Assembly (NCBI GenBank): GCA_007128135.1 | Contig: SKYA01000029.1 | Coordinates: 1-38,606 of the forward strand | Source: Paracoccaceae bacterium | Lineage (GTDB): Bacteria; Pseudomonadota; Alphaproteobacteria; Rhodobacterales; Rhodobacteraceae | Direction: 5' to 3' | DNA: 38,606 nt | Shown: positions 1 through 18,538 of the stretch, in pieces | Position numbering within the stretch: the first letter of the stretch is position 1 | Layout of the letters: every line of letters begins with the position of its first letter | Notes under the pieces: model-generated | What the model was told of the DNA's origin: nothing | Seen by the model: only the letters and a program-made list of their open reading frames with translations | Database searches by the model: none | Program-made: the position numbers and the translations under genes

Positions 1-1131
1 ATCGCGCACGCAATCGGCGGTTTCGGGGACGTTCGACAGCACCGTGGGCGGGTAGAAATAGCCCTTGCCCTCGGGAACCACCCCACCGCATTCCAGCACA
101 GCGCCCTTGGCAATCGCATCGGCCACGAACTCGGCCACCTTGTCACGCGTTGCGGCATTGACCAGCGGGCCGACATCGACGCTTGGGTCGGTGCCATCCC
201 CGACCTTCAAGGCCGACATGGCAGCAGTCAGGCGGCGGGTAAACTCTGCGGCCACAGACTCATGGACATAGATGCGGTTGGCGGCTGTGCAGGCCTCGCC
301 CAGATTGCGCATCTTGGCCAGCATTGTGCCTACAATTGCCACGTCCATATCGGCATCGTCGAACACGATCACGGGCGCATTGCCGCCCAGCTCCATCGCG
401 GGTTTGAGAACCTGATCGGCAGCCCCCTTCAGAAGCGTGCGTCCGACACCCGTCGATCCGGTAAAGCTGACCACCCGCACGCGGGGGTCATGCAGCATGT
501 GATCGACCAGCGCGCCGGTGCGCCGCGAGGGCAGCACGTTCACCAGCCCCGGCGGCACGCCCGCCTCGGTCAGCAATGGCATGAGCGCCAGCATGGTCAG
601 CGGCGTTTCCGAGGCGGGCTTGATGATCACCCCGCACCCGGCGGCCAGCGCGGGCGCGATCTTGCGCGTGCCCATCGCCGCCGGATAATTCCAGGGCGTG
701 ATCAGCACCGCCAGCCCTGCGGGCTTGTGCTGCACGATGATCCGCGCGCCAGAGCTGGGCGCATGGGTGATCAGCCCGTCAGCGCGCACCGCCTCTTCCG
801 CAAACCAGCGGAAGAATTCAGCGGCATAGGTGGCCTCGCCCATGGCATCCGCGCGCGCCTTGCCGTTTTCCAGCGTGATCAGGCGGGCGAAATGATCCAG
901 CTGCGCGGTCATCAGCTCCCAAGCCTTGCGCAACACTTCGGACCGCTGGCGCGGCGTGCGCGCGGCCCATTCGGCCATGGCGGCTTCGGCGGCATCAAGG
1001 GCCCCGTCGGCATCGGTGATCTCTGCCGAGGCGACCGAGGCCAGCACCTCCTCGGTGGCGGGGTTGATCACGTCGAACCGCTCTGCCGTCTTGTGCCATG
1101 TGCCGTTGATGTAGAGATCGGTGTAATCCAT
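1..1131 (-). CDS. NAD(P)-dependent aldehyde dehydrogenase (succinate-semialdehyde type), 3' end cut by window edge
   Basis: The visible 377 residues start at ATG 1129-1131 and run off the window, so about 70-110 C-terminal residues are missing compared with a usual 450-490. Seen: TPWNYP with the oxyanion Asn148, FTGSTGVG at 223-230 (nucleotide binding), general-base Glu247 in MELGG, and nucleophile Cys281 in NLGEACTAANR. The family oxidises an aldehyde to a carboxylate with NAD(P)+ in the cytoplasm; the overall pattern is closest to GabD-like semialdehyde dehydrogenases, but the substrate cannot be read from sequence. The start has a GAGG about 5 nt upstream and lies 17 nt after the E2 stop, so it is the last visible gene of the operon. 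An aldehyde released by the upstream E1/E2 system is the obvious candidate substrate (inference). Confidence 0.92.
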   Translation of the reverse strand, partial: MDYTDLYINGTWHKTAERFDVINPATEEVLASVASAEITDADGALDAAEAAMAEWAARTPRQRSEVLRKAWELMTAQLDHFARLITLENGKARADAMGEATYAAEFFRWFAEEAVRADGLITHAPSSGARIIVQHKPAGLAVLITPWNYPAAMGTRKIAPALAAGCGVIIKPASETPLTMLALMPLLTEAGVPPGLVNVLPSRRTGALVDHMLHDPRVRVVSFTGSTGVGRTLLKGAADQVLKPAMELGGNAPVIVFDDADMDVAIVGTMLAKMRNLGEACTAANRIYVHESVAAEFTRRLTAAMSALKVGDGTDPSVDVGPLVNAATRDKVAEFVADAIAKGAVLECGGVVPEGKGYFYPPTVLSNVPETADCVRD

Positions 1132-1148
1132 GGGTGCCTCGCGGGGGG

Positions 1149-2441
1149 TTAAAGCAGGTGACGCAGCGGGTCGTGCATCCGCCCTGCGAATTCGGAAAGA
1201 AGGGCGATTGCCTGATCCGGTGCGATCCCTGCAGATGTGCATTCCAGAATCAGCGACAGACCGTCGCCCTTCTTGAGAAGCGTCAGCACCGGCACATCTT
1301 CTGCGCCCATGCAGACTCCAGTCAGCGCGCTCATGCGCAGATCGCGCAACAGCAGATCGGGCGCGGCGTCGGAGGCTGTGACAGCCGACAGGCTGCGCCC
1401 GGTCGGCACATCATACGCGCGCCTGTTGCCAAAGCGGTCAACAGCCACGGTCGCAGTGCGGCCAAGGCAGGCCCCGGCAAGACCTGCCAGCAGGGCATCA
1501 GCATCGCTCAGCCCCTTTGCGTCGGCAGCCCATGTGGCGAAGGCGCCAAAGCCGTCCTGCGCGCAAGCGGCTTGCAGCCGCATTGCCCGCACAGCCGTTC
1601 CAGTCTGAGTCTCGGGTCTGGCGGCTGGCAGGTTTTCCAGAATTTCAAGATCGCGCATGTGATAGGGCTGCGGATGGCCCGCCTGCACCAGACGCGCCAG
1701 ATCCAGCCCCTTTTCCATCGCCACGCGGCGCAGTCTGGGCGAGGCAAGGATACGATCAGACGCTTGGGGCGCGAGGGCTGGTGTCGCGGGCCCGGGCCTT
1801 GGCGCAGGGTCAGGTGTCGCCTCCGGTTCCGGGGCCGGCGCTGGCGTGACTTTCGGCGCGGGCGCCTTTTCGGCCACCCCGCGCGCTACTGGTCTTTCGG
1901 GCTTCTCGGTCGAGATCACCGCCACAGCCTGCCCCACGGGCACCTCATCCCCCGGCTGCGCCAGCGTCGCGGCCAGATAGCCGCTGGCCCCTGCGGGCAC
2001 TTCCATCGTGGCCTTGTCGGTTTCCACCTCGAACAGGGACTCATCGGCGCCGACCTGGGCGCCAAGGTCCACCAGCCAGCCGACCAGCACGCCGCTATCC
2101 TGCGCCATGCCCAGTTGCGGCATGCTGATCTGTTTTCCTTCGGGCAGTGCATCAGCGTTATCCGCCTGTGCTCGGAGTGCGGCGGGCGGCGCGTCAACCT
2201 CTGCACTCTCCGAAATCCGCGCGATCGTCTTGCCGACAGGCACATCCTCGCCCTCGGCCGCTGTCACATGGGTCAGATAGCCGCTGGCCTGTGCCTCGAC
2301 CTCCATCGTGGCCTTGTCGGTTTCGACCTCGAACAGCGCGTCGCCCCTGGCAACCTTGTCGCCTGGCGCCTTCAGCCAGGACACGATCTTGCCTGCATCC
2401 TGTGCCATGCCAAGCTGTGGCATTGTCACCTCATGCGGCAT
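1149..2441 (-). CDS. Dihydrolipoamide acyltransferase-like E2 with two lipoyl domains and a degenerate catalytic domain
   Basis: 430 aa. Two tandem lipoyl domains (about 3-77 and 105-177) each carry the lipoylation motif ETDKATMEV, with Lys43 and Lys143 as attachment sites. A Pro/Ala-rich swinging linker (about 180-228) leads to an E3/E1-binding domain (about 229-268, ASPRLRR). The C-terminal 155 residues align loosely with the 2-oxoacid acyltransferase domain, including the terminal HDPLRHLL that resembles EDPxxLL, but that domain is normally about 230 residues. The catalytic HxxxDG motif is absent: the equivalent stretch near residues 399-406 reads LECTSAGI. It is translationally coupled to E1-beta (11-nt overlap, GGGGAG ribosome site inside the upstream gene). 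It should still carry and present lipoyl groups to E1; acyl transfer to CoA may depend on another E2 core (inference). No E3 gene is in the window. Confidence 0.85.
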   Translation of the reverse strand: MPHEVTMPQLGMAQDAGKIVSWLKAPGDKVARGDALFEVETDKATMEVEAQASGYLTHVTAAEGEDVPVGKTIARISESAEVDAPPAALRAQADNADALPEGKQISMPQLGMAQDSGVLVGWLVDLGAQVGADESLFEVETDKATMEVPAGASGYLAATLAQPGDEVPVGQAVAVISTEKPERPVARGVAEKAPAPKVTPAPAPEPEATPDPAPRPGPATPALAPQASDRILASPRLRRVAMEKGLDLARLVQAGHPQPYHMRDLEILENLPAARPETQTGTAVRAMRLQAACAQDGFGAFATWAADAKGLSDADALLAGLAGACLGRTATVAVDRFGNRRAYDVPTGRSLSAVTASDAAPDLLLRDLRMSALTGVCMGAEDVPVLTLLKKGDGLSLILECTSAGIAPDQAIALLSEFAGRMHDPLRHLL

Positions 2442-3426
2442 GGATCATCTCCCCGGCGCAGAGCCTGCGGGCATTGGCGGCAACCCCCTCGGGCGTGGGC
2501 ACGGTCAGGTCCTCCAGCGCGGGGCTGAAGGGCACGGGCACATCCATCGCGCCCATGCGCAGCACGGGTGCATCCAGATGGTAGAAGGCTTTCTCGTTCA
2601 GGCGGCTCGCGATCTCTGCGGTCACGCCATAGCTCTGATGGCCTTCATCAATGACAATCGCGCGGCTGGTCTTCTTCACGCTCTCAACCAGCGTGGCCTC
2701 GTCCAGCGGCACGATGGTTCGCGGGTCGATCACTTCGGCGCTGATCCCCTCTGCGGCCAGAATTTCGGCGGCTTTCTCGGCCACCTGCACCATCGAGGAT
2801 GTGCCGATCAGCGTGATGTCGCGCCCCTCGCGCTTCACATTGGCCACGCCGAAAGGAATGAGATACTCCTCTTCCTGGACAGGGGCCTTGTCCTGATACA
2901 TCAGCTTGTCTTCAAAGATCACCACCGGGTTGTTGTCGCGGATCGCGGTCTTCATCAGGCCCTTCGCCTCATAGGCCGAAGACGGCATCGCTACCTTCAG
3001 CCCCGGAATATGCGCCACGATGGCCTGCAGCGACTGGCTGTGCTGCGCGGCGGACCGGCGCGTGGCCCCCAGATTGGTGCGCAGGACCAGCGGCACGGTC
3101 AGCTTGCCGCCCGACATGTAATGCGTCTTGGCGGCCTGGTTACACAGCTGGTCCATGATCAGGAAGATGAAATCCCCGAACATCAGATCCACGATGGGGC
3201 GGGCACCGGTCATGGCCGCGCCCACGGCCATGCCCATGAAGCCCGGCTCGGAAATCGGCGTGTCGATCACGCGCGCGGTGCCGAATTCCTCGACAAGGCC
3301 AGACAGCACCTTGAACGGGGTTCCCGCCTCGGCCACGTCCTCGCCCATCAGGAACACGGTCGGGTCGCGGCGCATTTCCTCGGCAATGGCCTCGTTCACG
3401 GCCTGGGACAGGGTAATCTCGCGCAT
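2431..3426 (-). CDS. 2-oxoacid/acetoin dehydrogenase E1 component, beta subunit
   Basis: 331 aa, the usual length for the beta chain of heterotetrameric E1 (AcoB/PdhB/BkdB families). The N-terminal pyrimidine-binding domain has the thiamine-activating Glu in TPISEPGF (about residue 60), and the transketolase C-terminal domain covers roughly 200-325. With the alpha subunit it binds thiamine diphosphate, decarboxylates a 2-oxo acid or cleaves an alpha-hydroxyketone, and reductively acylates the lipoyl group of E2. The start at 3426 has a strong GAGGAG about 5 nt upstream and lies 11 nt after the alpha gene. Family size and SDR/ALDH neighbours favour an acetoin-dehydrogenase-like role over housekeeping pyruvate dehydrogenase, but sequence alone does not settle the substrate. 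Confidence 0.9.
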   Translation of the reverse strand: MREITLSQAVNEAIAEEMRRDPTVFLMGEDVAEAGTPFKVLSGLVEEFGTARVIDTPISEPGFMGMAVGAAMTGARPIVDLMFGDFIFLIMDQLCNQAAKTHYMSGGKLTVPLVLRTNLGATRRSAAQHSQSLQAIVAHIPGLKVAMPSSAYEAKGLMKTAIRDNNPVVIFEDKLMYQDKAPVQEEEYLIPFGVANVKREGRDITLIGTSSMVQVAEKAAEILAAEGISAEVIDPRTIVPLDEATLVESVKKTSRAIVIDEGHQSYGVTAEIASRLNEKAFYHLDAPVLRMGAMDVPVPFSPALEDLTVPTPEGVAANARRLCAGEMIHAA

Positions 3427-3437
3427 TCTCTCTCTCC

Positions 3438-4415
3438 TCAGGCCGCGTATACATGCATGTCGACTTCGGACGCATCCGGATAGGCGGCCTCCAGCGCATA
3501 GGCGACGGCCTCGGCGGCGTCCTTCTCGATCTGCGCATTCAGCGCATCAAGCTCGTCCTCGCTGGCGATCCCCTCGCTGACCAGATGCGCGCGGAAGCGG
3601 ATGATCGGGTCGCGATTGTCGCGCCAGTCCTTCTCCTCGGCCTTCGAGCGGTAGTATTCGCGGTTGATGTCGCCGACATGGTGACCGTGATAGCGGTAGG
3701 TCATCAGTTCCATGAAGAACGGTCCTTCACCTTTGCGGGCGCGCGCGACCAGCTTGCGGGTCAGGTCATTGACCGCCAGCACATCCTGCCCGTCCACCTG
3801 ATGCGCCTCGATCCCGAAGGCCTCAGCCCGCGCGGTGATCGAGCCGGCGGCGATTTCCTCGGTCTTCGTATACTCGGAATAGCCGTTGTTCTCGCAGGCG
3901 TAGATTACCGGAAGCTTCCAGAGGGCGGCCATGTTCATGACCTCGTACATCAGACCCTGCGCGGTCGCCCCGTCACCGAAGAAACAGACCGTCACATCGT
4001 CGCTGCCCTGCAATTTCGCACGCAGCGCAGAGCCAGTGGCAATCCCCATCGAGCCGCCAACGATGGCATTCGCGCCCAGATTGCCGTGGCTCTGGTCCGC
4101 GATATGCATCGAGCCGCCCTTGCCCCGGCAATACCCCTCGGCCTTGCCCAAGAGCTCGCAGAACATCTGCTTGAAATCGGCGCCCTTGGCCACGCAATGC
4201 CCATGCCCGCGATGGGTCGAGGTGATGCGGTCGTCATCGGTCAGCGCTTCGCAGATGCCCACGGCCACGGCCTCTTCGCCCGAATACATATGCGTCAGAC
4301 CGGGCATCTTCGCCGACAGGTAAAGCTGGTTGGCATTATCCTCGAAGGTGCGAATACGCACCATCTGGGTATACATGCGCAGATAGTCTTCGGTATTCGA
4401 CTTGGCCTTGGCCAT
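3438..4415 (-). CDS. 2-oxoacid/acetoin dehydrogenase E1 component, alpha subunit
   Basis: 325 aa, matching AcoA/PdhA-type alpha subunits. The thiamine-diphosphate motif starts at GDGATAQG (147-154) and ends at CENNGYS (174-180); the THRGHGH stretch at 67-73 is also typical. The reading frame is open 34 codons further upstream to 4517, but the start at 4415 (MAKAKSNTED) has a GAGAGGA ribosome site about 7 nt before it and matches where the family begins. The longer form would also run into the stop region of the M24 gene and through an intergenic hairpin. It forms an alpha2-beta2 tetramer with the product of the next gene. Catalytic roles are known for the family; the substrate is not determined here. 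Confidence 0.92.
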   Translation of the reverse strand: MAKAKSNTEDYLRMYTQMVRIRTFEDNANQLYLSAKMPGLTHMYSGEEAVAVGICEALTDDDRITSTHRGHGHCVAKGADFKQMFCELLGKAEGYCRGKGGSMHIADQSHGNLGANAIVGGSMGIATGSALRAKLQGSDDVTVCFFGDGATAQGLMYEVMNMAALWKLPVIYACENNGYSEYTKTEEIAAGSITARAEAFGIEAHQVDGQDVLAVNDLTRKLVARARKGEGPFFMELMTYRYHGHHVGDINREYYRSKAEEKDWRDNRDPIIRFRAHLVSEGIASEDELDALNAQIEKDAAEAVAYALEAAYPDASEVDMHVYAA

Positions 4416-4500
4416 GGCAGCGTCCTCTCGAAGGGGCCTCGGCCCCCATTTCATCTTGCCGGAAATACTCCCGCCGGAGGCCACGCCCCGACAGGGGCGT
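4416..4500 (-). other. Intercistronic region with hairpins and a Rhodobacterales-style GC-rich element
   Basis: The 85 nt between the M24 gene and E1-alpha hold a perfect 7-bp hairpin right after the M24 stop: arms ACGCCCC (4483-4489) and GGGGCGT (4494-4500), loop GACA on the plus strand (UGUC in the transcript). A second hairpin is formed by GGGGCC (4433-4438) and GGCCCC (4441-4446). Between them, 4463-4480 read on the minus strand gives CCTCCGGCGGGAGTATTT, followed by a GCAAGATGAAA-like tail. From memory, this type of sequence recurs between genes of Rhodobacterales. No U-tract follows, so processing or stabilisation within the operon seems more likely than termination (inference). Confidence 0.6.
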
Positions 4501-5799
4501 TCAGTAGCGGTTGGCAATGGGCAGGTCTTCTGCAGGGAACAGGCTGATCACTTCGCAGCCTGTTTCAGTAACCACCACTTCCTCCTCGATCCGCGCGGCC
4601 GAGTAGCCATCCGTGGCGGGGCAATAGGTTTCCAGCGCGAAAACCATCCCGGTCTTGATCTCCATCGGGTGATCCAGACTGATCGCCCGGCTGATGATCG
4701 GGCGCTCATGCAGCGCCAGTCCCAGTCCATGGCCGAATTGCAGGCCAAAGGCCGTCTGCTCGTCAGGAAAGCCAATTTCCTGCGCGGTGGGCCAGACCTC
4801 AGCCACCTTGTCGGTGCTGACCCCCGGCTTGATCATCGCGATAGACGCATCGATCCACTCGCGCGCCTTCACATAGGCATCGTTCTGCGCAGGCGTCGCG
4901 CGGCCGATGTTGAAGGTCCGGTAGTAGCAGGTCCGATAGCCCTGATAGCTTTGCAGGATGTCGAAGAAGGCCTGATCACCGGGCCGGAAATAGCGGTCGG
5001 TGAAATTGTGCGGATGCGGGTTGCAGCGCTCGCCCGAGATGGCGTTGATCGCCTCGACATCATCCGAGCCCATCTCGTAGAGCATCTTGTTGGACAGCGC
5101 GACAATGTCATTCTCGCGGATGCCGGGTTTCAGTTCCTCATAGATCATATGATAGACACCATCGACCATCGCGGCGGCCTGCGTCAGAAGCTGGATCTCG
5201 TCCCAGTTCTTGATCTCGCGCGCGGCCAGCATGATCTGCTGGCCATCGACCACGTTCAGCCCCTCTTCCTGCAGCGCGTGGAACATCGCGGTTTCGGCGT
5301 AATCCACGCCCACCTGCATGTCGCCCATGCCCGCATCGCGGATCAGCCCCGCGATTTCCTTCGCATACTGACGCATCAGCCCGAATTCTGGCGGGATTGT
5401 TCCGCGCATGCCCACCACGCCCGCGCGGCAATGATCCGGCACAAGCCAGTCCGAGAACTTCTTGTGGTGCATCGCCGCCGAGCCGAAGTCCCACACATAG
5501 GGCGCATCATCGCCCGTCAGCAAGCAGAAGCGACACATCTTGTCGCGTTCCCACTCGCCGATCTTGGTGGCCGAAACATAGCGGATATTGTTCACATCGA
5601 ACAACAACAGCGTGCCCGCCTGCGACGCCTGCAACGCCTGCCGCGTCCGCGCCAGCCGGTAGCGGCGCAGCCGGTCATGGTCGATCCGGCGCTCGAAATC
5701 GACCGAGGTATGACCCCAGGCGGGCAACCGCCCCTCCCAGCGCCAGTTGGGTTCCAGGTCCTGCGGGGTCAGCAGGTTCGGCATCAGGGCTCGTGACAT
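4501..5799 (-). CDS. M24-family (creatinase/Xaa-Pro dipeptidase fold) protein with one altered metal ligand
   Basis: 432 aa: an N-terminal creatinase-like domain (about 40-190) and a C-terminal pita-bread domain (about 200-425). The family signature aligns as Asp280, then Cys291 where the second metal-binding Asp is expected (spacing of 11 kept, followed by RTF), His357 in FGHGLG, Glu390 in FALET and Glu405 in ARIEE. Four of five ligands remain. Creatinase, a C-N hydrolase of this fold, has also lost metal ligands, so a non-peptidase hydrolase or lyase is plausible. The DMSP lyase DddP and the ectoine hydrolase DoeA share the fold, so peptidase activity should not be assumed. It has no signal peptide and is probably cytoplasmic. 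A GAGAGGA lies about 10 nt before the start. It sits between an SDR and the E1 genes in one operon, so it likely acts on a pathway intermediate (inference). Confidence 0.85.
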   Translation of the reverse strand: MSRALMPNLLTPQDLEPNWRWEGRLPAWGHTSVDFERRIDHDRLRRYRLARTRQALQASQAGTLLLFDVNNIRYVSATKIGEWERDKMCRFCLLTGDDAPYVWDFGSAAMHHKKFSDWLVPDHCRAGVVGMRGTIPPEFGLMRQYAKEIAGLIRDAGMGDMQVGVDYAETAMFHALQEEGLNVVDGQQIMLAAREIKNWDEIQLLTQAAAMVDGVYHMIYEELKPGIRENDIVALSNKMLYEMGSDDVEAINAISGERCNPHPHNFTDRYFRPGDQAFFDILQSYQGYRTCYYRTFNIGRATPAQNDAYVKAREWIDASIAMIKPGVSTDKVAEVWPTAQEIGFPDEQTAFGLQFGHGLGLALHERPIISRAISLDHPMEIKTGMVFALETYCPATDGYSAARIEEEVVVTETGCEVISLFPAEDLPIANRY

Positions 5800-5881: not shown

Positions 5882-6691
5882 TTACTGCATGATCATGCCG
5901 CCATCGATCATGATCAGCTGGCCGGTCATGTAATCACTGTCATCCGAGCACAGGAAGGCAGCGGTGCCCTGCACGTCCTCGGGGTAGCTGTAGCGTTTCA
6001 TGGTGATCATGGTCTTGGCCAGATGGTCCATCGACTGGCCTTCCTTCTCGAACATCCCGATCTTGACCAGATCCTTGTCAAGCTGTTCCCAGAGTTCGGT
6101 GCGCACGACGCCGGGGCCATAGCCGTTCACGGTGATCTTGTGGTCCCAAAGGGCTTTTGCACCGCCAATGATCATGGCGAGAACCGCATATTTGGAACAG
6201 GAATAGGGGATCACGTCCAGAAACGCCGTGCGTGAGACGATCGAGCCCACGGGAATGATCTTGTAGGGGTGATCTTCCATGGGACCCTGAGCGATCATCT
6301 GGCGCGCGGCCTCCTGCATGCCCAGAAGCACACCCTTGGCGTTGATGTTCATGATCATGTCCCAATTGTCTTCGTCAATGTCCATGAACATGCGCGGCTT
6401 GTTCACACCTGCGTTCAGCAGCGCCACATTGATCGACCCGAAGGCATCGACACAGGCCGCAACCGCTGCCGCGTTGTCCTCGCGCGAGGTGACATTCAGC
6501 TTTACGGCAACAGCCTTGCCATTGCCTGCCGCATTGATCTCGGCGGCCACCTCGTTGACGCCGTCCGCATTGACATCGCCAAGGCAGACATTGGCCCCTT
6601 GCGCGGCGAAATGGCGGGCATTCTGCGCGCCCATCCCCTGCGCGGCCCCGGTGATCAGGATGTTCTTGCCCTTCAGGCGTGTGGTGTCCAT
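5882..6691 (-). CDS. Short-chain dehydrogenase/reductase (diol or polyol dehydrogenase-like)
   Basis: 269 aa classical SDR. Seen: cofactor motif TGAAQGMG (14-21), an Asp at 39 after the second strand that favours NAD(H), NAG at 93-95, and the catalytic Ser150, Tyr163 and Lys167 (YSCSK). The C-terminus ends in the usual TGQLIMIDGG-type stretch. An in-frame ATG 18 nt upstream exists, but AAGGAGGA lies just before 6691, which decides that start. Such enzymes interconvert secondary alcohols and ketones with NAD(P). With the E1/E2 genes downstream it could make the ketone or hydroxyketone that the complex cleaves (inference). It is 21 nt downstream of the regulator gene and in the same operon. Confidence 0.9.
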   Translation of the reverse strand: MDTTRLKGKNILITGAAQGMGAQNARHFAAQGANVCLGDVNADGVNEVAAEINAAGNGKAVAVKLNVTSREDNAAAVAACVDAFGSINVALLNAGVNKPRMFMDIDEDNWDMIMNINAKGVLLGMQEAARQMIAQGPMEDHPYKIIPVGSIVSRTAFLDVIPYSCSKYAVLAMIIGGAKALWDHKITVNGYGPGVVRTELWEQLDKDLVKIGMFEKEGQSMDHLAKTMITMKRYSYPEDVQGTAAFLCSDDSDYMTGQLIMIDGGMIMQ

Positions 6692-6712
6692 GGCGTCCTC
6701 CTTGCGCATTGG

Positions 6713-8524
6713 TTATGTCAGGGCGCGCTCGGCCCGTGACTGGGCGCGCCTCAGGGCGTCGCGGGGGCTTTGAACCCCGCGCAGCATGTCGTGGATTTCC
6801 TGACCGCAGATCTCGAAGATGTCGGTGATCCGGGGAATCGGAGGGCGGGGCCAGTATTGCAATTCGTCGCGCAGCGACATTGCGTCCACGGCCTCGAAAA
6901 TGGGCGACAGACGGCGCACCTCGGGGTCGGCGCCAACCGAGTAGCGCGGTGCTGTGCGACTGCCGTTCAGGATATAGAGTTTCTGCGCCTCGGGCGAGGT
7001 GAAGGCGATCAGCGCCTCGGCGGCCGCGTCGCGCCGTTCTGCCGCGAGATTGGCCGGGATGCCCAGCACATAGCCGCCCACAGGGGCAAGCGGGCGCCCA
7101 CGGGGCCCTGCCGGATGCGGCAGGTAGCCTGTGTTGCCATTGGCAGGCGAGTCCGGGTCGCGCTCGAAATACGGGGCCAGAAGTGTGTAGCCATAGGCCA
7201 TCGCGATCTTCCCCGATGCGTAGGGGCGCACGCGCTCGTACCAGGACATCGACAGGATATCGGGCGGTGAATAGTCCAGCAGGGTCAGAAGGTAGTCGCA
7301 GGCCTCCAGCGCCAGTGGTGTGTCGATCGTCGGCACGATGTCGCGGCGGCGGGCAGTATCGGCGGCGAATCCGCCCGCGATCGGCTCGAGGTTGACGATC
7401 GGCTGGCCAAAATCGGCACAGGTCATCAGGAACTGATGCCCGAGCGCCGTGCCGCGCGCGGCGTTCCAGGCAATGCCATAGCGCCCGCGCTGCGGGTCAT
7501 GGAAATGGCGCGCGGCTGCGATCAGCTTTTCTGTCGTGTCCGGGGGTTGAAGCCCCGCTTCGGCAAACAGATCCTTGCGATAGAACAGCAGTTCAGGCGT
7601 GGTCTGGCTGGGCACCCCATAAGGTCGTCCGCCCCAATGGGCGGCCATCCAGCCTGCGGTATGGAAATCCGGCGGGTCCAGCCGGTCGATGTCAAGACAC
7701 TGGTCAAGCGCCATCAAAACGCCCTTTTCGGCAAATTCCCCGATCCAGGGCAGATCCACGGCGATGATGTCATACTTGCTGAAACGCCGTTCGGCATTGC
7801 GCAACGCCTCGGTGCGCAGCCGGTCGATCGAGAAGGCGCGCTGGCTGATATTGGCCCCGATGATCTGCTCGAACTGGCGCTTGAGGTTCTCCATGACCAT
7901 GAAGGTCGGATCACCATGCACCAGCACACGCACCCCGCCGGCAATCTGAAGCGGTTCGGGCAGCACTTGCGGGGGGGCAATCGACTGGCTGGCAGGCAGA
8001 TAGGACGCGCCGAAATAGTATTCGCGTTCGTTTATCACGGCGCTGGTCGTCGCTTCCGCCCCCAGACGCATGATCCGGTCGGCAAACTGGCGCCAGTTTG
8101 CCATCAGCCGGTCCGTCGGATGCAGCGAGAAGGACCGGCCCGAGCGGGTTCTGACCCGCTGTTCGACCATGCCGCTTTCCAGCATTTTCTGCAATTTGCG
8201 CCGTGCCGTGGCATAGGGCACTTCGGAGGCTGAGATCAGCATCGTCGCCGTGACGACCTTTCCGCCCAGATGCGCGCGCAGCAGAGCCATGACCATGTTG
8301 AGATACGGATTTGGATCTGCAATCTCGAGCGCGGTGTCCAGTTCTGCAGTCACGGACTCAAGAAAGGCCAGCGCGGCGGGCAGTGCCGAGCCTTCGGACG
8401 CGCTGGCGACCGGGCTGCTGTACGGGACCCGGGAGAAACCTTCGTTTTGAACATTTCCCATCCGCACTTCTATTGTCTTTCCCTGGTTGCCGAGCATTGT
8501 TCCGGGCCTGCGTGTTGTAGCCAT
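6713..8524 (-). CDS. Winged helix-turn-helix regulator fused to an ABC-type solute-binding domain
   Basis: 603 aa with an unusual architecture. Residues 1-70 are polar with no signal peptide or membrane segment. Residues about 75-145 look like a winged helix: helix around NMVMALLRAHL, recognition helix PYATARRKLQKMLESG (103-118), then a basic wing. Residues about 197-560 resemble a complete family-1 extracellular solute-binding protein (MalE type): YDIIAVDLPWIGEFA at 251-265, YGVPSQTTPELLFYRKDLF in mid-protein, and a GYVLGIPANL-type strand. The expected role is a cytoplasmic transcription factor whose sensor is a periplasmic-binding-protein fold, comparable in principle to LacI or LysR regulators but built from a different binding protein. 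The start at 8524 has a GAGGGGG about 8 nt upstream. It heads the minus operon and is divergent from the ABC importer, which it probably regulates (inference). I know of no characterised member. Confidence 0.82.
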   Translation of the reverse strand: MATTRRPGTMLGNQGKTIEVRMGNVQNEGFSRVPYSSPVASASEGSALPAALAFLESVTAELDTALEIADPNPYLNMVMALLRAHLGGKVVTATMLISASEVPYATARRKLQKMLESGMVEQRVRTRSGRSFSLHPTDRLMANWRQFADRIMRLGAEATTSAVINEREYYFGASYLPASQSIAPPQVLPEPLQIAGGVRVLVHGDPTFMVMENLKRQFEQIIGANISQRAFSIDRLRTEALRNAERRFSKYDIIAVDLPWIGEFAEKGVLMALDQCLDIDRLDPPDFHTAGWMAAHWGGRPYGVPSQTTPELLFYRKDLFAEAGLQPPDTTEKLIAAARHFHDPQRGRYGIAWNAARGTALGHQFLMTCADFGQPIVNLEPIAGGFAADTARRRDIVPTIDTPLALEACDYLLTLLDYSPPDILSMSWYERVRPYASGKIAMAYGYTLLAPYFERDPDSPANGNTGYLPHPAGPRGRPLAPVGGYVLGIPANLAAERRDAAAEALIAFTSPEAQKLYILNGSRTAPRYSVGADPEVRRLSPIFEAVDAMSLRDELQYWPRPPIPRITDIFEICGQEIHDMLRGVQSPRDALRRAQSRAERALT

Positions 8525-8736
8525 TGGCCTGTCCCCCTCACGATGTTCAAAACAGAAAGGTGATCATATCGTAAGTATATCCAAAATGAACATCATGATG
8601 TCCAAATCGGCCAAATCTCTGGTATTGTCCCGGGGAATAGGCGGCAAGGATGCAGATGTTGTCATGCATGCCGGACGAGCTATGGGTTCGGCTCGAAAGG
8701 CAGGGCAGCACGGAACACACCTATGGGAGGAAGACC
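8525..8736. promoter_or_regulatory. Divergent promoter region with palindromic operator candidate
   Basis: These 212 nt separate the regulator gene (minus) from the ABC importer (plus) and must hold both promoters. At 8587-8604 lies TGAACATCATGATGTCCA: a perfect 12-bp palindrome ACATCATGATGT flanked by TG/CA pairs with one mismatched pair. It lies in the most AT-rich part of the region (about 8560-8625). It is the best candidate binding site for the adjacent regulator, but nothing in the sequence proves the pairing. I could not assign -35/-10 boxes with confidence. Confidence 0.5.
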
Positions 8737-9678
8737 ATGACCAGAACCAAGAAGATTCTGCTTGCCAGCTGTGGCACCATCGCCCTGGCGGGCGCGGCTT
8801 CGGCCGACACGGTCCGTATCGGCATCACGCAGAACAATGTCGGGATCGACAGTTACCAGACAACCTACGAGCAGGCCTTCATCGCGGCGGCCGAGGCGAA
8901 CCCGAATGTAGAGGTCATCGTGCTGGACGCAGGCGGTGACGTTGCCCGCCAGATCAGCCAGATGCAGGACCTGATCCAGCAGCGGGTCGATGCGATCATC
9001 ATCTGGCCGACCGATGGCCAGGCGCTGGTGCCCGCCGTGCGCAATGCCCACCGCGAGGGAATTCCGGTCGTCGTGACCAATTCGAACATCGCCGAGGCGG
9101 GCATGGACTTCATCGCTGCCTTCTCTGGGCCGAACAACATCCAGCAGGGCATCTACTCGGCCGAGATGATGTGCGAGGCTCTGGGCGGCGAAGGGCAGAT
9201 CGTCCAGATCACCGGCATGCCGGGCTATACGACAGCGATTGAACGCCAGAAGGGGTTTGACGACCGTCTGGCCGAGCTCTGCCCCGGTGTGACGCAGATG
9301 GACATCCAGCCCGGCGACTGGAACCGCGAGCGCGCGCAGCGCACGATGGAGACGTTCCTGACGAGGTTCGACCAGATCGATGGCGTCTATTCGGGCGATG
9401 ACAACATGGGCGTCGGCGCGCTGAACGCGGCCCTGGCCGCTGGCCGAGCCGAGGGCATGGTTTTCATTGGCGCGACCAATTTCGCGGTGGGCTATGATGC
9501 CATGGCGCGCGGCGAATACTGGGGGTCGGTCTATCAGTCTCCGGTGGACGATGCCCGCGCCGCGTTGCAGACGGCACTTGATGTGCTGGCGGGAGAGGAT
9601 GTGCCGAAGCTGAACTACTTCGACACTCCCAAGATCACGCAGGACAACATGCACGAGTTCGACCGCCCGGTCTTCTGA
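8737..9678 (+). CDS. Sugar ABC transporter periplasmic substrate-binding protein (RbsB-like)
   Basis: 313 aa. The N-terminus MTRTKKILLASCGTIALAG followed by AASA is a Sec signal peptide with likely cleavage after Ala23. The mature part is a type I periplasmic-binding-protein fold: strand TVRIGITQNN, LIQQRVDAIIIWP (about 87-99), a GIPVVVTNSN hinge strand and DGVYSGDDNMGVGAL in the second lobe. It binds a sugar, polyol or related small molecule in the periplasm and delivers it to the permeases downstream. The frame is open 29 codons further upstream, but GGGAGGAAG stands directly before ATG 8737 and the signal peptide begins there. First gene of a four-gene importer operon; ligand unknown. Confidence 0.93.
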   Translation: MTRTKKILLASCGTIALAGAASADTVRIGITQNNVGIDSYQTTYEQAFIAAAEANPNVEVIVLDAGGDVARQISQMQDLIQQRVDAIIIWPTDGQALVPAVRNAHREGIPVVVTNSNIAEAGMDFIAAFSGPNNIQQGIYSAEMMCEALGGEGQIVQITGMPGYTTAIERQKGFDDRLAELCPGVTQMDIQPGDWNRERAQRTMETFLTRFDQIDGVYSGDDNMGVGALNAALAAGRAEGMVFIGATNFAVGYDAMARGEYWGSVYQSPVDDARAALQTALDVLAGEDVPKLNYFDTPKITQDNMHEFDRPVF

Positions 9679-9720: not shown

Positions 9721-9794
9721 TTCCGATGGCACGCTTGCCGTGTCGTCATGCACGCCGAGGGGAGCGTGCGAAGCGACTTTCCGGGAGGAGCCAG

Positions 9795-10769
9795 ATGCTG
9801 ATGACCCGTCTCAAGGCCGGGGGCCCCGCGATTGCAAAGCAGGGCATCCTTGTTGCCTTCATCGTGTTCATGATTGCGTTTTCACTGATGTCGGACAGGT
9901 TCCTGTCGGCCGACAACATCATGTCGGTGTTCCGGCAATCCGCCATCATCGGGGTGATGGCCATCGGGGTCACGATTGTCGTGATCGGTGGCAATCTGGA
10001 CCTGTCGGTGGGCTCGATGCTGTCATTCGCTACCGTGCTGGTGGTCGATCTGCACGACAAGATCGGTCCCGAGCTTGCCATTCCGGTAATGGTGCTGGCC
10101 ACGCTGTGCCTGGGGGCGATCAACGGTTTTCTGATCGGGATATTGCGGCTCAATTCGCTGATCGTGACGCTGGGGATGCTGTCGGCCATTCAGGGGCTGG
10201 TCCTGATCTATAGCGGCGGGCAGAATGTCGATATCGTGGATCAGCGCGGCACCTGGTTTGCCATATTCGGGCGGGGCGCAGTGTTCGGCATCGCGACACC
10301 CATCATCATTTTCGGTGCGCTGGCGCTCATATTCCATGTCATCATGACGACCATGCCTTTCGGGCGGCGCGTTCATGCCGTGGGGGGGAATCCGACAGCG
10401 TCTGTCTTCTCGGGCATCCCGCGCTCGCGCGTGGTGTTCATGACCTATCTGATCTCGGCGCTCTGCGTTGCCATCGCGGCGATCATCCTGGGCAGCCGCG
10501 TGATGGGCTCGCAGAACAATGTCGGACAAGGTTATGAGCTGCAGGTTCTGGCCGCAGTCATCCTTGGCGGTACCTCGCTTCTGGGCGGGTCTGGCAGCAT
10601 CCTGCGAACGGTGCTGGGCGTGCTGATGCTGGCCTTCATCCAGAACGGCCTGATCCTGATGGGACAGCCCTACTACACCCAATGGCTGGTAACCTGGGCG
10701 GTCATCATCGTCGCGGTCTGGCTGGACGTAGCCGCCAAGCGCGGCCGCCTGTTCTCTCCCATAGCATGA
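9795..10769 (+). CDS. Sugar ABC transporter permease (RbsC family), first of two
   Basis: 324 aa, highly hydrophobic, with about 8-10 predicted membrane segments. The BPD_transp_2 hallmarks are present: VIGGNLDLSVGSML (about 85-98), LGAINGFLIG, LNSLIVTLGM and VGQGYELQVLAAVILGGTSL near the C-terminus. It forms the inner-membrane channel with the second permease. The frame extends 23 codons upstream, but GGGAGGAG lies just before ATG 9795; a second ATG at 9801 is an alternative start. The stop is overlapped by or adjacent to the next gene, so the two permeases are translationally coupled. Two different permeases with one double ATPase is an arrangement also seen in Lsr- and rhamnose-type importers. 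Confidence 0.93.
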   Translation: MLMTRLKAGGPAIAKQGILVAFIVFMIAFSLMSDRFLSADNIMSVFRQSAIIGVMAIGVTIVVIGGNLDLSVGSMLSFATVLVVDLHDKIGPELAIPVMVLATLCLGAINGFLIGILRLNSLIVTLGMLSAIQGLVLIYSGGQNVDIVDQRGTWFAIFGRGAVFGIATPIIIFGALALIFHVIMTTMPFGRRVHAVGGNPTASVFSGIPRSRVVFMTYLISALCVAIAAIILGSRVMGSQNNVGQGYELQVLAAVILGGTSLLGGSGSILRTVLGVLMLAFIQNGLILMGQPYYTQWLVTWAVIIVAVWLDVAAKRGRLFSPIA

Positions 10770-10777
10770 GGTCCGCC

Positions 10778-11767
10778 ATGAGACACCTCTTTCAGAACCC
10801 TGTCCTGCGCTGGCTGATGCGCAACCCGATCTGGGGCTTCGTGCTGATCGTCTTCATCTTCTTCAGCCTGTCATCCGATCATTTCTTCGATGCCCGCAAC
10901 TTCCAGAACATCCTGGTCCAGACATCCACCATCGGGCTGATCGCGCTGGGCATGACGCTGGTCATGATCAACGGCAATATCGACCTGTCGGTGGGCGCGA
11001 CACTGGCGCTGGCCGCCGCCTTTGCCGTCGATGTGCAATCCTGGGCCATGTTCGCCACCTGGGGCAACTGGCAGATCCTGCCGGCAGTGTGCCTGGCGCT
11101 ACTGGTCGGGATCGCGATGGGGGCGATCAACGGCTTCATCGTCTGGAAAACCGGTGTCGATGCGTTCATCGTCACGCTGGGCGCCATGCTGGGCATTCGC
11201 GGACTGGTCTTTGTCTATACGGGCGAGCAGTCCTTCTACGCAATGAATTTCGCCTATTCGGATTTCAGCGCGTTCTCGGTCGGCCCGCTGCCGGTGCTTG
11301 CGCTGATCTTTCTGCTCTGCGTGCTGGCTGTTCATTGGCTGCTCTCGCGCACTGTGCACGGGCGCAACACCTATGCCGTGGGTGGCAACCGCGAGGCGGC
11401 AGTGAATGCAGGCATCCGGGTTGGCCCGCACATGATGATCAATTTCATGATTATCGGCTTTCTGGCGGCGCTTTCGGGCGTGCTTCTGTCCACGCAGATG
11501 GGGGCCGCGACGCCCAATCTGGGCCGCGATTACGAACTGTGGGTGATCACGGCCGTCGTCCTGGGCGGCACCAAGCTGACGGGGGGCAAGGGCGACATCA
11601 TCGGCACGCTGGGCGGCGTTCTGGCCATCGGGATTCTGCGCAACGGCATGAACCTGATGCAGGTGCCTGCCTTCTATGTCTATGTGATCCTTGGCAGCAT
11701 CCTGATCGCCGTCCTGTTCCTCGACAAGCGTTTCAACACCTCGACCGATGGAGGGCTGCGCCTATGA
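10778..11767 (+). CDS. Sugar ABC transporter permease (RbsC family), second of two
   Basis: 329 aa integral membrane protein homologous to the preceding gene: MINGNIDLSVGATLAL, GAINGFIVWKTGVDAFIVT and LGRDYELWVITAVVLGGTKL match its counterparts. Two starts are possible. ATG 10778 has GAGG about 7 nt upstream; ATG 10766 forms an ATGA overlap with the previous stop but has no clear ribosome site. I chose 10778 and cannot exclude 10766 (four residues longer). It pairs with the first permease as a likely heterodimer (inference). The next gene overlaps it by ATGA. Confidence 0.9.
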   Translation: MRHLFQNPVLRWLMRNPIWGFVLIVFIFFSLSSDHFFDARNFQNILVQTSTIGLIALGMTLVMINGNIDLSVGATLALAAAFAVDVQSWAMFATWGNWQILPAVCLALLVGIAMGAINGFIVWKTGVDAFIVTLGAMLGIRGLVFVYTGEQSFYAMNFAYSDFSAFSVGPLPVLALIFLLCVLAVHWLLSRTVHGRNTYAVGGNREAAVNAGIRVGPHMMINFMIIGFLAALSGVLLSTQMGAATPNLGRDYELWVITAVVLGGTKLTGGKGDIIGTLGGVLAIGILRNGMNLMQVPAFYVYVILGSILIAVLFLDKRFNTSTDGGLRL

Positions 11768-13278
11768 GTGACGCGCAACAACCGGCCCTGCGCCTGCAGG
11801 GCATCGTCAAGACCTTCCCCGGGGTGCGCGCCCTTGATGGCGTGGATTTCGAGGTCATGCCCGGTGAAGTCCATGCGCTGCTTGGCGAAAACGGGGCGGG
11901 CAAATCCACGCTGATGAAAGTGCTTGCGGGGATGTATCAGCCCGATGACGGCAAGATCATCATCGCAGGCCGGCCGGTGCGTATGACCACACCCATCGAG
12001 GCCAAGGCCGAAGGGGTGGTCCTGATCCACCAGGAACTCAGCCTTGTGCCGGAAATGTCGGCGGCCGAGAATATCTATCTTGGCGAATTGCCGCGCAGAT
12101 CCTTCGGGCGGGTGGACTGGAAGACACTCGAGGAACGCTCGAACACGATTCTGAAACGTCTGAAATGCAGTTTCCGGTCGGAAGTGACTGTTGCGAACCT
12201 GTCCATTGCCAACCAGCAGATGGTCGAGATCGCCCGGGCGCTGACGGTCGATGCACGCGTGGTCGTGTTCGACGAACCCACCGCTTCGCTGACAGATGCC
12301 GAAAAGGTGGTGCTGTTCGACATCATCAATGACCTGAAGGCGCAGGGCGTAGGCATTGTCTATATCTCGCACCGCATGGACGAGATCTTTACACTGTCGG
12401 ACCGTATCACCGTGTTGCGCGATGGGGCCTATCGCGGAACCCTGACCACGGCGCACACGAATGAGGACGAGGTCACGCGCCTGATGATCGGGCGCAGTCT
12501 GGACCTGTCGCGCGACGAGGCCGCCCCGACATTCGGCAAGACCATGCTGGAGGTGCGCAACATGGGCTGTCCCGGCCTGTACAAGGATATCAGCTTTTCG
12601 GTGCGCGAGGGCGAAGTGGTGGGCTTCTACGGGCTTGTCGGCGCGGGCCGGACCGAGATCGCCGAGACCCTGTTCGGTCTGCGCAAGCCCGCCTCGGGGG
12701 AGATCCGGGTCGATGGCGAGCCGGTCGAGATCGCCTCGCCACGCGACGCGATCGCGCTTGGCATCTCGCTGGTACCCGAAAACCGCAAGGAACAGGGTCT
12801 CGTGTTGCAGATGAACTGCCGCGACAACATGACCCTGCCTCAGGTGCAGGACCTGACGGCGGGACCGTTCGTGTCACAGGGCGCGGAGCTTGCCATCTTC
12901 GATCAGTATCGCGACAGGCTCGCCATCAAGACGCCGAGCTGGAAGCAACCTGTCGGCGTCCTTTCGGGCGGCAATCAGCAGAAGATCGTCATCGGCAAAT
13001 GGCTGTCGATGCAGCCGCGCGTGCTGATCGTGGACGAGCCGACGCGCGGCATCGATGTGGGCTCGAAATCAGAGATTCACCAGTTGCTGCGCGAACTGGC
13101 GGGGCAGGGGTATGCGGTGATCGTGATCAGTTCGGAAATGCCCGAGGTGCTGCGCGTCTCTGACCGGATCGTGGCCATGTATCACGGGCGGATCATGCGC
13201 GAATTCGGGATTCACGAGGTCACGGAGGATTCTCTGGTGCAGGCGATCTCGGGCATAAGGGTCGATGAGCCGGCCTGA
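11764..13278 (+). CDS. Sugar ABC transporter ATP-binding protein, duplicated (RbsA/MglA-like)
   Basis: 504 aa with two ABC domains, the usual length for this family. First half: Walker A GENGAGKST, Q-loop LIHQELSLVP, a weak signature LSIANQQM and Walker B VVFDEPTASL. Second half: degenerate Walker A GLVGAGRTE, signature LSGGNQQK, Walker B VLIVDEPTRGID. The reading frame is open far upstream, but ATG 11764 overlaps the permease stop as ATGA and the protein begins there as family members do. It powers uptake from the cytoplasmic face of the membrane. The degenerate second ATP site is normal in RbsA-type proteins. Last gene of the importer operon; a MetE-like gene converges from the other side after 57 nt. 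Confidence 0.95.
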   Translation: MSDAQQPALRLQGIVKTFPGVRALDGVDFEVMPGEVHALLGENGAGKSTLMKVLAGMYQPDDGKIIIAGRPVRMTTPIEAKAEGVVLIHQELSLVPEMSAAENIYLGELPRRSFGRVDWKTLEERSNTILKRLKCSFRSEVTVANLSIANQQMVEIARALTVDARVVVFDEPTASLTDAEKVVLFDIINDLKAQGVGIVYISHRMDEIFTLSDRITVLRDGAYRGTLTTAHTNEDEVTRLMIGRSLDLSRDEAAPTFGKTMLEVRNMGCPGLYKDISFSVREGEVVGFYGLVGAGRTEIAETLFGLRKPASGEIRVDGEPVEIASPRDAIALGISLVPENRKEQGLVLQMNCRDNMTLPQVQDLTAGPFVSQGAELAIFDQYRDRLAIKTPSWKQPVGVLSGGNQQKIVIGKWLSMQPRVLIVDEPTRGIDVGSKSEIHQLLRELAGQGYAVIVISSEMPEVLRVSDRIVAMYHGRIMREFGIHEVTEDSLVQAISGIRVDEPA

Positions 13279-13335: not shown

Positions 13336-14358
13336 TCACGCCAGTTCTGTCCGAACGATGGCGGCGCCGTCGGCCATGGCCTTCATCTTGCCGAAGGCAA
13401 CGTCATGGGGCAGGTATTTCAGCCCGCAGTCCGGAGCCACCACCACCTTGTCGGCATCGACATGCGGCAGCGCCCGTCGGATGCGGTGGGCGATGATCTC
13501 TGGCGTTTCCACTGTCATGTCGGACAGATCCAGCACGCCGAGGATGATCGTCTTGCCGCGCAGGCTTTCCAGAACCCCGGTGTCAAGGTTGGACTGTGCG
13601 GTCTCGATGCTGATCTGGTCGCACAGACAGTCCGCCAACTGCGGAAGGAAGGAGTAACCCTCGGGGCGGTTCCTGGTCAAAGCCGCATAGCCGAAACAGA
13701 TATGCACCGCCGTTGTGCCCGCCGCGCCTTCGAGCGCGGCATTGAGCGCCGCGAGCCCGTATTCGGCGGCCAGCCCGGGCTTGGCCTGCATCCAGGGCTC
13801 ATCCAGTTGCACCACATCGGCACCGGCCGCGAACAGGTCCGCGATTTCCTCGCGCACCGCCGCAGCATAGGCCATCGCCGTTTCGGCCGTCGAGGGGTAA
13901 TGGTCGTTGACTACCTGCTGGCTCATGGTGAAGGGACCCGGCAGGGTGATCTTGACCTTGCGGCTGGTGTGCGCGCGCAGGAAACGCAGGTCCTCCAGTT
14001 CGACGGGTCGTGTGCGCCGGATCGGTCCCACGATGCGTGGCACAGGCACCGGCACGCCCGAGCGCGTCAGGATCTCGCCATAGCGGTCCAGATCCAGCCC
14101 ATCCAGCGCCGTGGCGAAGCGGTTGGAATAGCTTTCGCGCCGGATTTCGCCATCGGTGATGATGTCGAGCCCGGCACGCTCCTGGTCCAGGATGGCCAGC
14201 CGGGTGGCGTCGTCCTGGGCCTGTTTCAGAAGGGGTTCGGGGATGCGCCAGAGTTCGCGCGCACGGGTGCGGGGTGGGAACTGGCCCTTGAGCTTCTCGC
14301 GGTCGATAAGCCAGTCGGGCTGGGCATAAGAGCCCACGAGCGAGGTGGGAAACAACAT
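13336..14358 (-). CDS. Core MetE-like zinc methyltransferase (cobalamin-independent methionine synthase C-terminal domain only)
   Basis: 340 aa, under half of full MetE (about 750 aa): a single (beta/alpha)8 domain. All four zinc ligands seen in MetE have counterparts: His219 and Cys221 (VHICFG), Glu252 (ISIETAQS) and Cys311 (PDCGLK). A QLDEPWM stretch (184-190) matches the substrate-binding loop. Family members move methyl groups between thiols and folate or other methyl donors; relatives also handle coenzyme-M thioethers. Here it ends a catabolic operon with a dioxygenase, an IclR regulator and an amidohydrolase, so demethylation of a growth substrate or handling of a released methyl or thiol group is more likely than methionine synthesis (inference). 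GGGAGTG precedes the start. Confidence 0.85.
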   Translation of the reverse strand: MLFPTSLVGSYAQPDWLIDREKLKGQFPPRTRARELWRIPEPLLKQAQDDATRLAILDQERAGLDIITDGEIRRESYSNRFATALDGLDLDRYGEILTRSGVPVPVPRIVGPIRRTRPVELEDLRFLRAHTSRKVKITLPGPFTMSQQVVNDHYPSTAETAMAYAAAVREEIADLFAAGADVVQLDEPWMQAKPGLAAEYGLAALNAALEGAAGTTAVHICFGYAALTRNRPEGYSFLPQLADCLCDQISIETAQSNLDTGVLESLRGKTIILGVLDLSDMTVETPEIIAHRIRRALPHVDADKVVVAPDCGLKYLPHDVAFGKMKAMADGAAIVRTELA

Positions 14359-14386
14359 GGCGACACTCCCGGTGTTGTGAGCGGTG

Positions 14387-14404
14387 GCGGGCCGACAGGC
14401 CCGC
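14387..14404 (-). other. Intercistronic hairpin between amidohydrolase and MetE-like genes
   Basis: Perfect 7-bp arms GCGGGCC (14387-14393) and GGCCCGC (14398-14404) with a GACA loop on the plus strand (UGUC in the transcript), 8 nt beyond the amidohydrolase stop. It has the same stem length and loop as the hairpin after the M24 gene (4483-4500). No U-tract follows, so a role in mRNA processing or stability is more likely than termination. Confidence 0.55.
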
Positions 14405-14412
14405 GCGGATAT

Positions 14413-15915: not shown

Positions 15916-15949
15916 GTTCGGGTCTCCTCCCTTGGTTTACTGTCTTTGT

Positions 15950-16747
15950 TCAGCCGCCCAGCACCGAAGCCAGCACCGGGAAGCGGTTGATTTGATGCGC
16001 GATATGAGATGCGGCCTCGCGCAGGGCGGGCAGCCGCTCGGCGATCAGGCCATCGGGCGTGACCATTCCGGTGTAGCCCGAGGTGTTCAGCGCCGCGATG
16101 GTCCGGCCCTCGGTATCGCGGATCGGGACGGCCAGCGCCGTGATCCCGTAATCCAGCTGGTCGACGGTGGTCGCGAAGCCCTGGGCGCGCACGCTCATCA
16201 GTTCGTCGCGCAATGCGTCAAGATCCGTCAGCGTCTTGGCTGTCAGCGGCTCCATCCGCGCGCAGGACAGCCGTAGCTCGAGTTCGGCATCGGGCAGGGC
16301 GGCCAGCAGGACCCGGCCCATCGAGGTGACATGCGCCGGATAGCGCGCGCCCACCATTGCCGCCGCGCGCCGCGCCCGCTGGACCGAGACATGGGCGACA
16401 TAGATCACATCCGTCCCGTCCAGTGTTCCGACCGAGGAGGCATCGCCATAGCGATTGACCAGTTCCCGCAGATCCGGGTGCAGGAGTTCGTCGATCCGGG
16501 ACGCGAAGTAGAAGGCCGATCCCAGCGCCATGACGCGCGGCTTCAGATGAAAGCGCTTGTCGCGGCTGCCCACATAGCCAAGCTCGGTCAGTGTGATCAG
16601 CGCCCGCCGCGCCGCTGCCGGGGACAGGTTCACCCGGCGGGCAACTTCGGACAGCGTCATCTCTGGTTGCGCTGCATCGAAGCATTCGAGGATCGCCAGG
16701 CCCTTGGCCAGGGCCTCGACAAACTCGGCGGGGCGGCGCTCGGGCAT
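15950..16747 (-). CDS. IclR-family transcriptional regulator (PcaR/PcaU/PobR-like)
   Basis: 265 aa. The N-terminal winged helix (about 8-75) includes LSEVARRVNLSPAAARRAL as the helix-turn-helix. The C-terminal effector domain (about 80-250) has the typical TSMGRVLLAALP and GITALAVPIRD motifs. Its opening FVEALAKGLAILECFD is characteristic of the branch that controls protocatechuate and 4-hydroxybenzoate genes. It follows the dioxygenase gene by 2 nt, so it is co-transcribed with its likely targets and autoregulated. The palindrome at 17693-17711 is the obvious binding site, serving both divergent operons (inference). The effector is probably an aromatic acid or ring-cleavage product. Confidence 0.92.
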   Translation of the reverse strand: MPERRPAEFVEALAKGLAILECFDAAQPEMTLSEVARRVNLSPAAARRALITLTELGYVGSRDKRFHLKPRVMALGSAFYFASRIDELLHPDLRELVNRYGDASSVGTLDGTDVIYVAHVSVQRARRAAAMVGARYPAHVTSMGRVLLAALPDAELELRLSCARMEPLTAKTLTDLDALRDELMSVRAQGFATTVDQLDYGITALAVPIRDTEGRTIAALNTSGYTGMVTPDGLIAERLPALREAASHIAHQINRFPVLASVLGG

Positions 16748-16749
16748 GC

Positions 16750-17610: not shown

Positions 17611-17721
17611 TTTCTCCCCCGTTATCAGGCCGCGCCACATTTGCCGCTTGACCTGACGGTAATTCGCGGCGATATTTTCGGCAAGTGAAAAATTTTTCGA
17701 TATGCGAAAAAAGGGGAATCC
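17611..17721. promoter_or_regulatory. Divergent promoter with IclR-type operator candidate
   Basis: This 111-nt region separates the dioxygenase operon (minus) from the citrate-synthase-like operon (plus). At 17693-17711 lies TTTTTCGATATGCGAAAAA: perfect 7-bp arms TTTTTCG and CGAAAAA around ATATG. IclR-family sites are commonly short palindromes of this style. It ends only 10 nt before the plus-strand start and abuts its AAGGGG ribosome site, so binding would block the plus-strand operon directly. The adjacent IclR gene is the natural partner (inference). Confidence 0.65.
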
Positions 17722-18534: not shown

Positions 18535-18538
18535 ATCC

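Follow-up and report, generated by a model that had tools for sequence, protein, structure and literature searches.

A winged helix joined to a complete MalE-type solute-binding domain: a probable cytoplasmic transcription regulator between divergent catabolic and importer operons

The one-component regulators of the LacI/GalR family combine a LacI-type helix-turn-helix (HTH) with a sensor from the periplasmic-binding-protein fold of type I (RbsB-like). In the TrmB family, a winged helix is joined to a sugar sensor and these proteins regulate sugar ABC importers with an effector domain that is not known to be a solute-binding protein (SBP). Btr of Bacillus consists of an AraC part and a Peripla_BP_2 domain, and here a complete SBP domain works as cytosolic sensor beside an importer. 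The HTH of SgrR has a Pfam family of its own (SgrR_N). In SgrR/DsvR, an HTH joined to an SBP_bac_5 domain works as transcription factor (PMC13060122), and the protein described here is similar to SgrR/DsvR of E. coli and V. cholerae in that an N-terminal HTH and a solute-binding domain would be united in one transcription factor. According to a table of PMC13293324, 229 Peripla_BP_2 genes have a second domain, which is HTH_18 in 98.7% of them; in the gene set of that paper, none of the 148 SBP_bac_1 genes has a second domain. It is also stated in an SBP survey that SBP profiles pick up the sensor domains of transcription regulators (PMC9602780).

The stretch of DNA that was analyzed (the window, 38,606 nucleotides) carries a regulator gene with the following parts:

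6713 to 8524, minus strand: regulator gene, 603 amino acids if M1 is the start, 582 amino acids if M22 (ATG at 8459-8461) is the start
8114 to 8311, minus strand: winged helix-turn-helix (residues 72-137)
8048 to 8113, minus strand: long helix after the wing (residues 138-159), ahead of a poorly predicted linker
6719 to 7933, minus strand: complete family-1 solute-binding protein domain (residues 198-602)

Structure prediction yielded a winged-helix fold with a recognition helix (residues 104-116) and wing strands (residues 120-124 and 132-136), and in 65 aligned sequences the residues P103, A105, T106, R109, R123, G129, and H135 were invariant. The winged-helix profiles of Pfam stayed below their cut-offs (MarR_2, 12.3 bits vs. 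27; IclR, 15.0 vs. 22; TrmB, 15.4 vs. 25.6), and when the winged helix was searched in isolation the best Pfam match was the TrmB winged-helix model (E 0.0023, below Pfam's cut-off). Residues 159-176 between the two domains were predicted with low confidence. For the C-terminal part, the SBP_bac_1 profile scored 88.2 bits (cut-off 26) over profile positions 50-307 of 307, and structure comparison indicated a MalE-type fold for residues 193-603. Here, a match was found to 5iai (Arad_9887 of Agrobacterium, an ABC transporter solute-binding protein), but this is a transport protein and only the SBP part is matched. We found no hydrophobic segment in the regulator that could serve as export signal; its N-terminus consists of a disordered tail followed by the winged helix. 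Thus, the possibility of a secreted SBP with a mis-called start was rejected, as there is no signal peptide and a winged helix is predicted at the N-terminus.

These data bear out a preliminary description of the gene, which had placed a winged helix near residues 75-145 and a MalE-type domain at about residues 197-560 of a cytoplasmic protein without signal peptide; the binding domain turned out to be complete and secretion is not supported. The same description had called the sensor design uncommon. No description of a regulator made of a winged helix and SBP_bac_1 was found in the open-access literature searched; the design has precedents in other SBP families and the regulator has relatives in several paralogous branches. 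Hence, the principle is known from SgrR/DsvR, and as far as we searched, no regulator that combines a winged helix of MarR type and an SBP of MalE type has been described, nor has its palindrome.

Membership in the known families was rejected in each case. Among the seven Pfam matches of the regulator protein up to E 1, both SBP_bac_5 and SgrR_N are absent (SgrR), and so are HTH_18 and Peripla_BP_2 (Btr type). Neither LacI nor Peripla_BP profiles were matched up to E 1, and the type I sensor fold of LacI/GalR differs from the MalE-type fold of the sensor found here. For TrmB, the model remained at 15.4 bits (25.6 needed), and no effector-domain match was obtained up to E 1.

We compared 14 close orthologues, each of which has a methionine at the positions of both M1 and M22; 12 of them stay in register throughout. 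In these 12 orthologues, the differences within residues 1-47 are spread over the three codon positions, with the third slightly ahead, and from residue 48 onward they fall mostly on the third position. This third-position bias (12 of the 14 close orthologues) rejects a chance open reading frame. Family members of other branches start near residue 47. From the codon-position pattern and these starts, it can be concluded that residues 1-47 form a tail without constraint, or that part of this stretch is not translated.

The regulator gene heads an operon on the same strand and faces an importer operon:

5882 to 6709, minus strand: SDR oxidoreductase, next in the operon of the regulator
4501 to 5799, minus strand: M24 metallopeptidase-family protein
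3438 to 4517, minus strand: 2-oxoacid dehydrogenase E1 alpha
2431 to 3426, minus strand: 2-oxoacid dehydrogenase E1 beta
1149 to 2441, minus strand: lipoyl carrier protein; two lipoyl domains, and an E3-binding match that is short and below threshold
8737 to 9678, plus strand: RbsB-type (Peripla_BP_4) SBP that belongs to the facing importer; its N-terminus resembles a signal peptide
9726 to 13278, plus strand: importer genes (permeases 9726-10769 and 10682-11767, ATPase 11764-13278)

That the regulator heads a catabolic operon and faces an RbsB-type importer had been claimed from the window. The genes for SDR, M24 protein, RbsB, both permeases, and ATPase accompany the regulator in 59 of the 59 orthologous loci with full flanks; 54 of these loci also have E1 alpha and beta, and 53 have the lipoyl protein. 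The divergent gene order of the window is kept in the orthologous loci listed, save for additional gaps on the importer side and one locus (L053), in which the E1 genes lie on the importer side. In Phaeobacter gallaeciensis, genes for an aldehyde dehydrogenase and a separate E2 follow in the operon, as does lpdA; its importer side includes an SDR, an oxidoreductase, and a ThuA protein. Pfam did not detect a catalytic 2-oxoacid dehydrogenase acyltransferase domain in the lipoyl protein (1149-2441), and since Phaeobacter carries a separate E2 gene, the E2 looks split.

Two further parts of the window were recorded. A 296-residue open reading frame without Pfam match (262-1152, plus strand) is convergent to the lipoyl gene and is present in 53 of the 59 full loci. 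Beside the importer lies a cluster for a MetE-like protein, an amidohydrolase, an IclR regulator, and an intradiol dioxygenase (13336-18582, minus strand), for which no match was obtained in the fetched flanks of 80 orthologous loci.

The region between the regulator and the importer contains palindromes, and one more lies in the 5' end of the annotated regulator gene:

8575 to 8595, no strand: operator-like palindrome, 21.6 bits
8596 to 8616, no strand: operator-like palindrome, 16.6 bits, its centre exactly 21 bp from that of the preceding site
8436 to 8456, no strand: remote operator-like palindrome of 19.1 bits, separated by 139 bp from the closer of the two tandem sites
8646 to 8651, plus strand: conserved -10-like position pattern of the importer operon (A at 8647, T at 8651)

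The core of the strongest site (8578-8592) is the sole exact TRTYCAWNWTGRAYA in the 3.3 Mb genome. The remote palindrome is located just downstream of the ATG of M22 and falls within the codons of residues 1-47. When two mismatches were allowed, TRTYCAAAATGRAYA was matched in 16 of 100 shuffles of the window, too. No sigma-70 consensus promoter was found across 8330-8800; if the -10-like pattern is real, positions of about -52 and -73 relative to the importer promoter would follow for the tandem sites. A fourth site (5586-5606, 15.0 bits) is located inside the M24 gene and may be due to chance.

Divergent regions were obtained from 106 loci and an EM motif search was carried out on 105 of them, with the copy of the window excluded. 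The motif found in the divergent promoter regions of the orthologues is TATCCA-N3-TGGATA. Starting from the seed, EM yielded aaaTaTCCAaatTGGAtAttt, the perfect symmetry of which is partly built in because both strands were read, with a log-likelihood of 4949; three single-base shuffles with the same seed gave 42-94. Out of 12 random EM starts, 9 arrived at the palindrome or at a shifted or partial version of it, 2 at a form with the halves one base closer, and 1 at a GC-rich pattern with a much lower score. Exact TRTYCA-N3-TGRAYA was present in 52 of the 106 regions and in 0 of 20 shuffled sets. In 60 long loci, 137 sites scoring 16 bits or more were counted within the 33 kb of divergent region vs. 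10 in the remaining 1,029 kb, a comparison that gives a contrast and not a discovery since the matrix was trained on these same regions.

When regions with a common exact 80-mer were merged, 94 distinct regions remained, and 89 of these carry a pair of sites that each reach 10 bits and are spaced by exactly 21 bp; site counts are not independent, as the orthologues and the paralogous branches have common ancestry. A further site beyond the 21-bp pair is present in 82 of the 89 regions. The distances of the 119 further sites to the nearer pair member cluster at 34-35 bp (27 sites), 82-86 bp (36 sites), and 135-139 bp (35 sites). Spacings of 21, 84, and 137 bp correspond to about whole helical turns, but 34 bp does not. 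The IclR gene of the window (15950-16747) was rejected as owner of the palindromes, because it is absent from the fetched flanks of the 80 orthologous loci (tracing threshold E <= 1e-15, 35% identity or more) and the palindromes persist.

The motif had been learned on orthologues only, so that the paralogues were outside the training set. For the regions directly upstream of the regulator, we used a set of 25 (24 paralogues and one orthologue, L115). Here, sites of at least 16 bits were found for 8 of the 25 members vs. 14 of the 909 remaining 480-bp windows, with 2 among the 70 that are AT-rich; at 14 bits the corresponding counts were 11 of 25, 22 of 909, and 2 of 70. When L115 was left out, 10 of the 24 paralogues reached 14 bits. 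Judged with a crude ORF caller, some of the matches in these remaining windows are promoters of the same clusters (e.g., L119 at 8789 and L116 at 11707). L138, L139, L128, and L116 are among the paralogues with no site directly upstream of the regulator, and in some of these a different promoter of the cluster has one. When whole loci were considered, 21 of the 27 paralogous loci contained a site that reached 16 bits (0.071 vs. 0.010 per kb), including two loci with three sites each that come from AT-rich genomes, in which such sites are more to be expected; six loci had none at this score. The 21-bp pair recurs in a family member from another class.

Taken together, the predicted winged helix, the unsupported secretion, and the conserved palindromes of the divergent region make a DNA-binding regulator of both operons the best reading. 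We consider it very probable that the protein is a cytoplasmic one-component transcription regulator, which binds the palindromes via its winged helix, senses with its SBP domain, and controls both divergent operons. Databases list it as an exported sugar-binding protein; most likely, it is an intracellular gene switch.

It is unlikely that the protein binds DNA as a regulator while its SBP domain has lost ligand binding and now works as oligomerization or protein-protein module. Against such a loss, the SBP part (residues 198-603) is the better conserved one, with 72-76% identity in the nine orthologues of the family search vs. 41-57% for residues 52-196 in most orthologues; it retains near-invariant runs including PSQTTPE, WNAARGTALGH, and SMSWYER, and the paralogues keep the whole domain while the surrounding pathway differs. 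Very improbable is a transport component, that is, an SBP kept inside or unusually exported, with an N-terminal domain for protein contact and palindromes owned by another regulator: the complete SBP domain, the database name, and a free SBP in another genome (L145; CUT1-type permeases beside it, an N-terminus that resembles a signal peptide, and 42% identity to the sensor domain) would suit this explanation, but a signal peptide is lacking, the winged helix keeps R109, R123, and R125, the cluster already has an RbsB-type SBP, no second conserved regulator was found among the window genes traced in orthologous loci and none other is annotated in the Phaeobacter cluster from ThuA to lpdA, and similar palindromes accompany the regulator gene in clusters with other enzymes.

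For the regulator, we propose the following mechanism. The N-terminal MarR-type winged helix would bind the TATCCA-N3-TGGATA palindromes, probably as a dimer, and helix 138-159 is a possible dimerization helix. The C-terminal CUT1/MalE-type domain would be the sensor: its closure on the compound taken up, or on an early metabolite, would be passed on to the DNA-binding part. Since the sensor has the fold of sugar and polyol binders and belongs to a catabolic cluster, we regard the compound taken up, or an early product, as the most likely ligand and infer that it is a sugar, polyol, or cyclitol. The importer SBP is of another family, which means that sensor and importer evolved their recognition separately. 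With tandem sites 21 bp (two helical turns) apart and a remote site, two dimers would sit on one DNA face and probably form a loop. In the absence of ligand, the regulator would most likely repress its own promoter and hence the catabolic operon it heads, which is suited by the sites crowding its own start. When ligand is bound, the facing importer promoter would be allowed or activated, a direction suggested by site position. If the -10-like pattern is real, the tandem pair near -52 and -73 lies in a location that is usual for activators.

Sequence relationships indicate that the regulator is not a single case and belongs to a family with several paralogous branches. In its taxonomic family, 38 of 198 genomes gave a match at E up to 1e-40, several of them with two or three. 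For the class (7 of 337 genomes at 1e-35) and the phylum (6 of 349 at 1e-30), the counts are rough, since scoring was limited to three candidates per genome and a number of matches are confined to the SBP part. The same genome has a second member (44% identical), which lies opposite a Peripla_BP_4-type importer, an SDR, and a Gfo/Idh/MocA oxidoreductase. Other paralogue clusters variously hold intradiol dioxygenases, maleylacetate reductases, sugar isomerases, and Gfo/Idh/MocA oxidoreductases. A plasmid collection contained 36 matching records, 28 of which are annotated as 'extracellular solute-binding protein'; in two Shinella records (H35 and H36) the match is restricted to the SBP part, and H35 is located in an ordinary transporter operon. 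Because 28 of the 36 records call members exported SBPs, the regulator class seems to be hidden under a transport name. The palindrome permits a sequence-based reading of candidate regulons, and ordinary binding assays on the sensor domain should reveal ligands and thereby help to name the substrates of uncharacterized importers and catabolic clusters. If our reading is true, the MalE-type fold joins the binding-protein folds that serve as cytosolic sensors.

The origin of the fusion was approached with a tree that comprises 46 rows and has several long branches; L005 had been removed because of its short length. The 37 fused rows and L145 form one group (support 81/92), and the fused label needs two changes; the fused rows alone were one clade in 16% of 200 bootstrap trees. 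The free SBP of L145 (8742-10091, minus strand, genome G014), which also adjoins an ATPase, is nearer to the sensor domain than many fused members. It may be close to the domain donor or may have lost its winged helix later, and the tree fits either. One ancient fusion would be the simplest reading, not a proven one. We are evenly divided over the wider proposal of an unnamed, mainly alphaproteobacterial regulator family, in which a MarR-type winged helix and a CUT1 SBP were joined once in ancient times and spread through sugar, polyol, and cyclitol pathways (with importers that are often CUT2), combining cytosolic Venus-flytrap sensing with looping between a two-turn tandem and remote operators.

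Further clusters came from two AT-rich alphaproteobacterial genomes of 1.4 Mb (L141 and L142), the members of which (L141 8306-9991, L142 8200-9957) are about 33% identical and face an ABC importer, in L141 with a Peripla_BP_4 SBP. Sites of 26.6 and 25.9 bits are located at the boundary between regulator and importer; that of L142 lies inside the longest reading of the regulator ORF and upstream of the next ATG. In these loci, strong palindromes were seen both at the importer boundary and ahead of an SDR gene. By eye and with no statistics, site variants track variants of the predicted recognition helix; for example, TGTCCA-N3-TGGAAT goes with ARGTAHR and TRTCAG-N3-TGGAC with VPYGTAMRR. In one branch (L118, L133, and L135), a related yet different palindrome-like element, ATTTCTTCGCNTTGGTGAAAT, is located about 120 bp upstream of the residue-55 codon. 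It scores 9.1 bits with the orthologue matrix and could be this branch's own operator.
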